Part shown: piece after piece, positions 28,719 through 42,840 of the stretch | Position numbering within the stretch: position 1 is the first letter of the stretch | Layout: each line of letters begins with the position of its first letter | Assembly (NCBI GenBank): GCA_016215155.1 | Contig: JACRLQ010000040.1 | Span: forward strand, 1 to 57,267 | Source of the DNA: Nitrospirota bacterium | Lineage (GTDB): Bacteria > Nitrospirota > Thermodesulfovibrionia > Thermodesulfovibrionales > UBA6898 | Reading direction: 5' to 3' | DNA length: 57,267 nt | Program-made: the position numbers and the translations under genes | The notes under the pieces: model-generated | What the model saw: the letters and a program-made list of their open reading frames with translations, nothing else | What the model was told of the DNA's origin: nothing | Databases searched by the model: none

Positions 28719-31367
28719 TCAATGCGCCTCAGCCCAATTCTTCCCGTGGCCTATATCGACCCTTACAGGCACGGACAGTTTAATCGCCTCTTCCATCTCG
28801 GTCTTTACGAGCGATCTCACCGCCGCCAGTTCCCGTTCAGGCAGTTCGACCAGGAGCTCGTCATGGATCTGAAGGACCATCCGCGCCTCAAGATGCTCTT
28901 TTTTGAACCTGTTACGGATATTTATCATCGCTATCTTTATGATATCCGCCGCGGTCCCCTGTATCGGAGTGTTCATGGCAAAACGTTCCCCCTGCTGCCG
29001 GACCGTCCTGTTTTTGTTATGCAGTTCCGGTATCGGCCTTCTTCTTCCAAGGAGAGTGCAGGCATAGCCTTTTTCTTCCGTCTCCTTTATAACGGCCGCA
29101 ATATACGCATTGACCCCGGGATGCTTCGCGAAATATTGCTTTATGAATCTATCGGCCTCGCGCGTGTCGATATTCAAAGTCCCGGAAAGCCCGAAGGCCG
29201 AGATGCCGTATATAACGCCGAAATTCACTGTTTTCGCCACTCTCCTCATGTCTGAGGTCACCCTGTCAGGGCCGACCCCGTAGATTTCGGAGGCGGTGCG
29301 CGTATGGATATCGCGACCGCTTCTGAAGGCCTCGATCAACCCCTCGTCCTGACTCAGATGCGCCAGAATTCTTAGTTCGATCTGCGAATAATCGGCGGAA
29401 AGGAGAAGGTTCCCTTCGTCGGCGATGAAGGCCTCGCGGATAGGTTTTCCCCACTCACCCCGCACCGGGATGTTCTGCAGGTTTGGTTCGCTGCTGCTTA
29501 ACCTGCCCGTGGCCGTGATGGTCTGGTTGAACGAGGTATGGATCCTTCCGGTTTCGCGGTCGGCTATGGCCGGCAGGATATCGAGATATGTGGTCTTGAG
29601 CTTTGTGAGGGTCCTGTACTGGAGGACCTCCCTGGGCAGCTCATGCTGCAGGGAGAGTTCTTCCAGGACGTCCACGTTCGTCGAAAAACCTGTCTTCGTC
29701 TTTTTAGAGGGCTGCAGCCCCAGGTTGTGAAACAAAATCGAACTCAGCTGCTTCGGAGAATTGATATTGAATTCCTCTCCGGCAAGGAAGAAGATCCTTT
29801 TTTGTATGCTGTCGATTTCCGCTGTGATCTTTTTCGAAAGCCTGTGCAGTTTCGAGGCGTCAATCTTTATCCCGGTCATTTCCATGTCCGAAAGGACCTC
29901 TATAAGCGGCATCTCTATATTGAAATAGACCTGATCCAGCCCCTTCTCCCCGAGCTTGTCAAAAAGCAGCCCCCTTAACTCAAAGCTCAGGGCCGCGTCT
30001 TCTGCGCAATAGGCCGTGGCTTCGTCCAGCGGGACCTCAGCAAAGGTCGCCCTTTTTTTGAGGACATCGGCAAAGGGCCGCTTCTTCTTCGACAGATACT
30101 CGAAGGCCGCCTCATCGAGGCTGTGGTTTGATTTGTTGGGGTTAAGAAGGTACGCGGCGATCATGGTGTCGTACAGGGGGCCTTTGATTTCGATATTTTC
30201 GCGTCTCAAAACAAGAATGTCATATTTGAGGTTATGGCCGATCTTGGCTATATTTTTATCTTTCATTACCGGGGAGAGAATGGAAAAGACCTGTTCAGCG
30301 GGAAGCTGGCTTTGAGTCCCCTCCGGCAGAAGGGAATGCCTCACCGGTACATATACCGATAAATCTTTTCCGCTGCAAAGTGAGATGCCGACGAAACTGT
30401 CGGAAAGAGGGTCACGCCCCGTTGCCTCGACGTCAAAACATACCTCGTCTTTTATGGACGAGATGACGTCATTGAGCTCCGTAACCGTGAGGATGGTTTT
30501 GTGCTGCCTGACCGGTCCGCTCCCTGAGGGGAGGAGTTTCATGAAGCTCGTAAATTCGAGCTCCCTGAAGACCGTCAGCAGGGCCAGCCAGTCAGGCTCG
30601 CGAAGGACCAGATCGCGCGCCTCGAGGTCGAGCGGGACGGACGTATCGATCGTCGCGAGCCTCAGGCTTAACCGCGCTGATTCGGCCCCTTCCGTGACCA
30701 TATTCCTCAGCCGCTCTTTTTTTATCTTATGGGGGTTTTGAAGCAGGTCTTCGAGGCTGTCAAAGGATGTCAGGAGCTCTCGCGCGGTCTTTTCCCCTAT
30801 CCCTTTTATCCCGGGGATGTTGTCGGACGTATCGCCCGTAAGCGCCATGAATTCGGTCACCCGTTCAGGCCCGACCCCGAATTTCTCCCTGACATACGCC
30901 GGATCAAGCACCCTGTCTTTCATGGGGTCGAAAATCTTTATGTGGTCATCGACAAGCTGCAGCATGTCCTTGTCCGCGGTGACTATGAATACCTGGTCAT
31001 TTTTGCCGGCCACCTGTTTTGCTATCGTCCCGATTATATCGTCGGCCTCATAGCCGGGGATTTCGAAGGTCCTGATATTAAACGCCGAGACGATCTTCCT
31101 GATATACGGCAGTTGTTGCACCAGTTCGGCAGGGGCCTCGGGTCTGTTCGCCTTATAGTCCTGAAAGAGCATGTGACGCTCCGTAGGGGCAGGGGTGTCG
31201 AATGACATTATGATGCCGTCGGGGTTTTTGTCCTTAATGATCTTCAGCAGCATATTCGTAAAGCCGAATATCGCGTTTGTGGGCAGGCCCTTCGAGGTCG
31301 TAAGCCCTCTTACGGCATAAAAGGCGCGATAGACATAAGAATTTCCATCGATCAGGTAAATGTTCAT
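28719..31367 (-). CDS. polA: DNA polymerase I
   Basis: The 882-residue enzyme has all three domains. Residues 1-290 are the 5'-3' exonuclease (DGNSYVYRAFYA, EADDIIGTIA, TADKDMLQL, MALTGDTSDNIPGIKGIGEK). Residues 310-480 are the 3'-5' proofreading domain with the Asp-x-Glu of CFDVEATGRDPL, so proofreading appears retained. Residues 500-882 are the polymerase, with LLSADYSQIELRI near 655, RRVAKTVNFGVIYG and QIHDELLVELPE near 835. It fills gaps in repair and removes Okazaki RNA primers. It is transcribed divergently from purB. Confidence 0.97.
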   Translation of the reverse strand: MNIYLIDGNSYVYRAFYAVRGLTTSKGLPTNAIFGFTNMLLKIIKDKNPDGIIMSFDTPAPTERHMLFQDYKANRPEAPAELVQQLPYIRKIVSAFNIRTFEIPGYEADDIIGTIAKQVAGKNDQVFIVTADKDMLQLVDDHIKIFDPMKDRVLDPAYVREKFGVGPERVTEFMALTGDTSDNIPGIKGIGEKTARELLTSFDSLEDLLQNPHKIKKERLRNMVTEGAESARLSLRLATIDTSVPLDLEARDLVLREPDWLALLTVFRELEFTSFMKLLPSGSGPVRQHKTILTVTELNDVISSIKDEVCFDVEATGRDPLSDSFVGISLCSGKDLSVYVPVRHSLLPEGTQSQLPAEQVFSILSPVMKDKNIAKIGHNLKYDILVLRRENIEIKGPLYDTMIAAYLLNPNKSNHSLDEAAFEYLSKKKRPFADVLKKRATFAEVPLDEATAYCAEDAALSFELRGLLFDKLGEKGLDQVYFNIEMPLIEVLSDMEMTGIKIDASKLHRLSKKITAEIDSIQKRIFFLAGEEFNINSPKQLSSILFHNLGLQPSKKTKTGFSTNVDVLEELSLQHELPREVLQYRTLTKLKTTYLDILPAIADRETGRIHTSFNQTITATGRLSSSEPNLQNIPVRGEWGKPIREAFIADEGNLLLSADYSQIELRILAHLSQDEGLIEAFRSGRDIHTRTASEIYGVGPDRVTSDMRRVAKTVNFGVIYGISAFGLSGTLNIDTREADRFIKQYFAKHPGVNAYIAAVIKETEEKGYACTLLGRRRPIPELHNKNRTVRQQGERFAMNTPIQGTAADIIKIAMINIRNRFKKEHLEARMVLQIHDELLVELPERELAAVRSLVKTEMEEAIKLSVPVRVDIGHGKNWAEAH

Positions 31368-42107: not shown

Positions 42108-42368
42108 ATGGACGACCGTGACCGTTCACAGGACGTGGACCAATCCGCAGAGGTTATAGATGTTCAGTTCGGCTGCTGTCAGCTCAATAAAAAACTGCTC
42201 CTGAAGTCCCTCGACTCCCTTGCGCCCGGCGGTGAAATCGGTATCCTCGCGGAGAACTCCGATGTGATGAAGGAGATGGTCCGTAAGTACGCCCGTGAAA
42301 AGGGATGCGTTATAACCGGCATATCCGACCAAAACGGAACGTCTTTAATAAAATTAAAGAAAAACTGA
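42108..42368 (+). CDS. TusA-like sulfur-carrier fold protein with altered motif
   Basis: The 86-residue protein fits the TusA/SirA fold: VIDVQFGCCQLNKKLLLKSL, then LAPGGEIGILAENSDVM and a final IKLKK strand. The CPxP motif of TusA is replaced by CCQL, leaving the key Cys followed by another Cys and no prolines. Such variants are seen in sulfur-metabolising bacteria with unknown roles. The gene is divergent from relA/spoT and converges with the next small gene. Confidence 0.55.
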   Translation: MDDRDRSQDVDQSAEVIDVQFGCCQLNKKLLLKSLDSLAPGGEIGILAENSDVMKEMVRKYAREKGCVITGISDQNGTSLIKLKKN

Positions 42369-42405: not shown

Positions 42406-42591
42406 TCAGTGTTTCTCGCCGAAGTCCCCTTTTTCATAACAGCCCGCGGGACAGCCGCGGCACATACCGGACAGATAAGTAAGGTCTTTCTTTTTCTCCG
42501 GGGCGGAACAATGCTCAAGATGCTCCTTGGCTTCGCCTACGGCTCGCTGCCAGAGGTTGAACTTCTTTCCGCAACGGGGGCACTCTTTCAT
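42406..42591 (-). CDS. Small zinc-ribbon-like Cys-rich protein
   Basis: The 61-residue protein starts MKECPRCGKKFNLWQRAV behind GTGAGG. Cysteine pairs CPRC at residues 4-7 and a His/Cys pair (HLEHC) around 25-28 form one possible zinc site. CRGCPAGC around 44-51 adds three further cysteines. There is no signal peptide. The fold resembles small zinc-finger proteins; no function is assigned. It converges on the TusA-like gene. Confidence 0.65.
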   Translation of the reverse strand: MKECPRCGKKFNLWQRAVGEAKEHLEHCSAPEKKKDLTYLSGMCRGCPAGCYEKGDFGEKH

Positions 42592-42644: not shown

Positions 42645-42675
42645 TTGACAAAAATATTTAAAAAGCGCTTAATAA
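42645..42675 (+). promoter_or_regulatory. Sigma-70 promoter of the putative structured RNA
   Basis: TTGACA at 42645-42650 is perfect. TTAATA (42669-42674) or TAATAA one base later lies 18-19 bases downstream. Transcription would start near 42682, with no start codon or ribosome site leading into an open frame afterwards. Confidence 0.6.
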
Positions 42676-42683
42676 AATCAGGA

Positions 42684-42840
42684 GTAAAGAGCTTACCAAA
42701 AAGTGGTGGACCTGCTCCTCTTTCTCAGCAGAAAGGTTAAGATGTCTAGGATGTAAGGTTCAGACGTAAATGTCTTTAGCTGTATGTCTCAAGATGTAGA
42801 AACCGCTGAGATAAGAGGAGGACAGGCGCCACTTTTTTTT
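42684..42840 (+). ncRNA. Putative structured non-coding RNA, about 155 nt, with terminal U-run
   Basis: AAAAAGTGGTG (42699-42709) pairs with CGCCACTTTTT near the end. CCTG pairs with CAGG, and CTCCTCTTTCTCAGC (42714-42728) pairs with GCTGAGA-T-AAGAGGAG (42805-42820) with one bulge. Two small GA bulges interrupt what is otherwise a stem of 30 base pairs. The apex of about 75 bases holds AGAC/GTCT and GGTT/AACC helices. The 3' strand runs into eight T, as in an intrinsic terminator. A promoter lies directly upstream and no reading frame exists. The closed-stem shape and size recall 6S RNA, but I cannot confirm the family. SRP RNA motifs are absent. Confidence 0.6.

Follow-up and report, generated by a model that had tools for sequence, protein, structure and literature searches.

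Nitrospirota are ecologically important bacteria. In a 2022 survey, only three annotated sRNAs were counted among them (PMC9029176). The closest described relatives in form of the RNA treated here are the 6S RNAs, which shut down RNA polymerase. What minimal 6S-1 RNAs that still work have kept is the central bubble (PMC8876501). In the Bacillus cereus group, 6S genes occur in tandem and are co-transcribed (PMC7726162); in a literature search that was not exhaustive, we did not find a tandem with a non-6S RNA in first position.

We analyzed a stretch of 57,267 nucleotides from a Nitrospirota bacterium (hereafter the window), in which an earlier note had proposed a stable, independently transcribed small RNA, either a divergent 6S or a new class. 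We refer to it as the rod RNA. In the labels used below, G000 is the source genome, and L-numbers are loci.

The window copy: locus, promoter and fold

The RNA is flanked by the 3' end of recJ on one side and a gene for a 61-aa Cys-rich protein on the other. The features of the locus are as follows.

42645-42650, + strand: -35 box TTGACA, read directly; 72 of 77 family copies likewise have a perfect TTGACA at this distance
42668-42673, + strand: weak -10 box CTTAAT with a 17-bp spacer; across the family, this box has a TA(T/A)AAT-like consensus preceded by GGNG
42680-42840, + strand: rod-shaped small RNA transcript, start deduced from the -10 box, end in the T-run
42680-42697, + strand: 5' leader, purine-rich, unpaired, of fixed length and weakly conserved across the family (from TTGACA-to-stem distances)
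42698-42729, + strand: 5' arm of the basal stem, GUGGUG(GN)CYUGCU(CCUC) with a 2-nt bulge, plus CUCAGC (from fold and conservation)
42730-42804, + strand: apex of 75 nt with a conserved AGAAAGG bulge, a G-U-rich rod and a GUAAAU hairpin loop (from fold and alignment)
42805-42837, + strand: 3' arm of the basal stem, GCUGAG ... CAGGCGCCACUUU (from fold and alignment)
42833-42840, + strand: T8 run, read directly; with the closing stem, an intrinsic terminator
42406-42591, - strand: 61-aa Cys-rich protein without a Pfam match
42108-42368, + strand: small TusA-like ORF (PF01206, 24 bits, below the cut-off), beyond the Cys-rich gene

The earlier note had called the promoter strong, which holds for the -35 box but not for the -10 box: CTTAAT, the best candidate in the window copy, has four of six matches to a -10 box and was not called in a strict sigma-70 promoter scan of the window. 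This box lies 17 bp from TTGACA, and the 18-19 bases reported before fit an alternative box one or two bases further. Because a few other nearby genes use the same TTGACA/-10 type, the promoter looks like an ordinary housekeeping promoter, and a special promoter class for the rod RNA was rejected on the same grounds. From its start at about 42680 to the T-run, the transcript would measure about 160 nt, close to the unit of about 155 bases without a reading frame described before, and a comparison of family copies revealed no conserved ORF. A small peptide from a GTG GTG frame (VVVLLLF...) was considered and rejected, as the frame meets a stop after 6 codons in L009, L012 and L015, varies in length from 6 to 60 codons, and carries indels that are not in threes.

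Folding of 42675-42840 yielded one continuous rod of -61.2 kcal/mol, compared with -40.1 +/- 3.9 in shuffles (z -5.4; none of 200 dinucleotide shuffles was as stable). This fold reproduces the paired ends with two GA bulges and a single-base bulge, as well as the 75-base apex, that had been read from the sequence earlier; the 3' strand runs into eight T as reported, with CGCCAC immediately 5' of the run. The complementary strand folds less stably (-49.5), and its apex mostly opens. The apex helices use G-U pairs, so the opposite strand folds worse, which indicates that the RNA is encoded on the + strand.

At the equivalent site of the relatives G001, G005, G006 and G013, rel lies close to recJ and the RNA is absent between them; the window copy and its two small neighbor genes were thus gained here or lost there. 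Both the TusA-like ORF and the Cys-rich gene fall within the stretch missing between rel and recJ in several relatives.

Distribution, covariation and anatomy of the family

The checks suggested with the earlier note included a comparison with Rfam, a search of related genomes, and a search for compensating base changes in the stem. In Rfam 15, neither 6S (RF00013) nor any other family scored above its gathering score for the window RNA, nor matched it at E up to 10. No family matched the other copies in 20 loci either; across these searches, the sole match to the RNA was RgsA, at the level of chance (9.7 bits against a cut-off of 88.4).

Relatives were present. BLASTN with a 206-base query detected them in 24 of 101 genomes. 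The near-palindromic sequence of the RNA places about half of these matches on its opposite strand; they were re-oriented using the promoter and the T-run. A covariance model, R1, built from 25 sequences, gave the window RNA 144.5 bits and matched 41 of 176 genomes of Thermodesulfovibrionales (Nitrospirota). Each of the 41 had 1 to 7 matches, and a few matches are antisense echoes of a sense match. In the phylum sample, R1 matched 32 of 395 genomes, all Thermodesulfovibrionales and none elsewhere in that sample; strict filters were used in the covariance-model searches, so weak members may be missed. The named matches are Nitrospirota MAGs, several of them labelled Thermodesulfovibrionales, plus the Ngb-4 assembly (Nitrospiraceae bacterium), which we take to be Candidatus Sulfobium mesophilum. 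NCBI places that organism in Nitrospirales; the order name used here follows the MAG titles. Eight DNA-pattern matches outside Nitrospirota (Rhodoferax, Archaeoglobales, Solimonas, Cupriavidus, Planctomycetaceae, Dyella, one Proteobacteria MAG and one Bacteroidia MAG) had no model score and were discarded as chance, and no rod-RNA match was found in viral contigs. Besides the window copy, the source genome carries one at G000:C15 (44.8 bits) and another at G000:C87 (36.7 bits).

Compensating changes were also observed. In an independent MAFFT alignment of 40 copies, the rod comprises 53 pairs, with 86.7% of cells paired. Changes on both sides occur in 27 of these 53 pairs and amount to 82 cells; shuffles gave 37.8 +/- 5.0 and slid-partner controls no more than 48, the latter a comparison that favors the rod somewhat, as its structure was derived by folding the same sequences. 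Double changes in the basal stem, such as column 54 with 155 (A-U to G-C, 11 sequences), are independent of this bias. Though it lies outside the covariance model, TTGACA is found upstream in 72 of the 77 copies with upstream sequence. In those 72, the spacer to a -10-like box is 16-18 bp, nearly always 17. Almost all copies have their basal stem 51-58 nt from TTGACA, and in nearly all, a T-run of at least 4 follows the stem.

The conservation in relatives excludes chance as an explanation, and the window locus is, on sequence evidence, almost certainly a real small-RNA gene. Judged by its promoter, terminator, covarying structure and lack of an ORF, it is an independently transcribed structured small RNA, and the earlier proposal to this effect is supported by the conservation, the covariation, the invariant promoter spacing and the terminator.

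The family tree contains old subfamilies common to several families of the order, not recent repeats. Copies are orthologous within genera and mostly non-syntenic between genera; no neighbor gene is widely common across genera, and the nearest neighbors have unrelated Pfam domains. As judged from these searches, the rod RNA is a new, ancient, multi-copy family limited to one Nitrospirota order. Of the two classes offered by the earlier note, the new one fits, and a divergent 6S was contradicted by the lack of a match at E up to 10 and of a bubble. At both L117 and L124, a pair of copies from different subfamilies, oppositely oriented and separated by about 2 kb, adjoins Hsp20 genes; L163 carries a copy of the same second subfamily.

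The most conserved part of the RNA is the base of the rod: GUGGUG, a 2-base bulge G(U/A/C), CUUGCU and CCUC, with the partner strand GAGG...AGCAAG, CACCAC. Conservation of the 5' arm (GUGGUGG.CUUGCU) reaches 1.4-1.9 bits at most positions, and the rod-base sequence is kept, as read from the alignment, beyond the demands of pairing alone. Above it lie a CUCAGC/GCUGAG helix, an AGAAA bulge and then an apex whose length and sequence vary with the subfamily; the complete RNAs measure from about 130 to 208 nt. The apices of L021 (1534-1614) and L096 (2426-2495) consist of tandem 15-nt units such as AGTCTCAAGATGTAA, which can pair mutually via G-U, so that the direct repeat doubles as an inverted repeat. 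The covariation-supported fold is a continuous rod with small bulges and no central bubble, in agreement with the earlier remark that the bubble signature of 6S is not evident.

Association with 6S RNA

Besides its canonical 6S (G000:C99, 88 bits), the source genome encodes two other 6S paralogues. In six genomes, including the source genome, a rod copy is followed head-to-tail, within about 15 nt, by a 6S paralogue (G000:C15:25996-26343 [L081], G001:C23, G003:C48, G014:C4 [29117-29465], G017:C90 and G021:C106); G021:C64 is a further rod-6S tandem, at a contig edge. The 6S paralogues of the tandems have a closing stem, a central bubble and, in most, a T-run terminator. Because the tandem leaves no promoter-sized gap and the T-run of the rod is shortened, the rod RNA and the 6S paralogue very probably share a transcript, in which the two halves fold as separate domains (z -6.1). 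The resemblance to 6S noted earlier was thus an apt hint, even though the RNA itself is not 6S. Most rod-RNA copies are not beside 6S. In family f5 (G062, G042, G089), the same 6S paralogue is solitary; it follows a TTGACA promoter of similar kind and has AATCAGAAGAAG as its first transcribed bases.

Other candidate structured RNAs were seen in these genomes. A second 6S-like RNA, which the Rfam 6S model scores at about 30-45 bits, under its cut-off, occurs in many genomes of the order. In the source genome, a solitary 6S paralogue has a cspA-like thermoregulator candidate (L083:3082-3462, - strand; 46 bits against a cut-off of 78) at a distance of less than 1 kb, and c-di-GMP-I-GGC riboswitch candidates at L002:190-265 (58.6 bits) and L079:179-258 (55.7 bits) score just under gathering score.

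Proposed function and comparison with known systems

We favor, with a probability of roughly 0.4, a trans-acting structured RNA whose bulged base binds a protein, probably within the 6S/RNA-polymerase circuit, over one that acts by antisense pairing. The RNA would fold at once into a single unbranched rod, the base of which, two short helices with a fixed two-base bulge, is a candidate protein-binding site; the apex, variable between copies, would supply specificity or spacing, or tune the protein site. A protein-binding site is most likely because the rod base is conserved at the sequence level far beyond the needs of pairing. The apparent co-transcription with a 6S paralogue in several genomes makes a partner within the 6S/RNA-polymerase circuit the likeliest, such that the rod RNA would be produced in step with 6S and bind either RNA polymerase itself or a factor working alongside it. 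However, the stem could instead be conserved in sequence because one of its strands pairs with a target, most copies are away from 6S, and the neighbor genes share no theme. The bolder idea of a second, bubble-less RNA regulator of RNA polymerase or 6S, built and regulated with 6S and expanded in Thermodesulfovibrionales, seems to us unlikely as it stands.

Multi-copy antisense RNAs with variable parts are common, and an Hfq-dependent antisense sRNA is the strongest of the alternatives, if a doubtful one. The 5' leader, or an opened part of the rod, would pair with mRNAs while the U-tail binds Hfq. Hfq is encoded in the source genome (G000:C41, 102 bits) and in most relatives, the intrinsic terminator provides a U-tail, and the leader is unpaired. 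However, this leader is the least conserved part across subfamilies, nearly everything else is paired, and the conserved sequence is sequestered within a stable stem. A pattern for the stem-strand complement also found no more matches in the source genome than a reversed control.

The rod RNA could also be a 6S paralogue that has diverged strongly but continues to trap RNA polymerase, the head-to-tail loci then being pairs of tandem 6S genes, like those of the Bacillus cereus group (PMC7726162), of which it is the first. We consider this improbable. Its shape, the six genomes in which it immediately precedes a 6S paralogue, and the solitary f5 paralogue with the same kind of promoter and first bases are all consistent with such an origin, but the covariation-supported fold is missing the central bubble that 6S needs (PMC8876501), and RF00013 matched neither the window RNA at E up to 10 nor the copies in 20 loci. 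Moreover, similarity to the local 6S paralogue is within that of shuffles (local alignment, p 0.21), and these genomes already hold one canonical and one or more extra 6S RNAs.

Still less probable is a dispersed repeat or small mobile element without a cellular role, the palindrome being a by-product. The 1 to 7 dispersed copies, their mostly non-syntenic placement between genera, and the several relatives in which the RNA is missing between rel and recJ would fit this explanation. In contrast, promoter, spacing, stem sequence and terminator persist, with compensatory changes, over deep divergence; within a genus the copies are orthologs, and they group into old subfamilies in place of recent identical repeats; and no linked transposase was present among the neighbors scanned.

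Finally, a CsrA sponge or a Ro60-bound Y RNA is refuted for the rod-RNA family by the absence of the proteins concerned. Like the CsrB/RsmZ sponges, the rod RNA is a multi-copy small RNA with GGA-containing repeats in some apices: the 15-nt repeats of L021 and L096 include some with AGGAUGUA, which resembles the CsrA site. Unlike them, it occurs without CsrA, which is absent from the source genome and every searched genome of its family, and its GGA is not invariant: most copies have at most one apical GGA, several have AAGA, and the motif is mostly paired in the rod. The plan of a lower stem that is bulged and conserved, topped by a variable apex, is common to Y RNA/YrlA and the rod RNA, but TROVE/Ro60 is absent from 100 of 101 genomes searched, and the sole carrier is not the source genome.

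The protein-binding reading preferred here concerns a well-supported new family with a defined structure and fixed promoter geometry, for which the 6S tandem is a clue useful for experiments. If the rod RNA acts on RNA polymerase, the bubble would not be the sole RNA route into the 6S circuit, and the tandem loci allow this to be tested. As in the tandem ssrSA-ssrSB operon of the Bacillus cereus group (PMC7726162), two structured RNAs stand in a row and the second has no promoter of its own; there, however, both members are 6S, whereas the first member here is a rod RNA in which no relation to 6S was detected. Compared with 6S RNA (SsrS, RF00013) and 6S-2, the rod RNA has no central bubble, 6S terminal-stem signature or covariance-model score, and it is restricted to one order, with the canonical 6S elsewhere in the source genome. 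Yet the two are alike in being rod-shaped RNAs of 150-200 nt whose ends pair, in having their own sigma-70-type promoter and several paralogues per genome, and, in six genomes, the rod RNA and a 6S paralogue are apparently transcribed as one unit.
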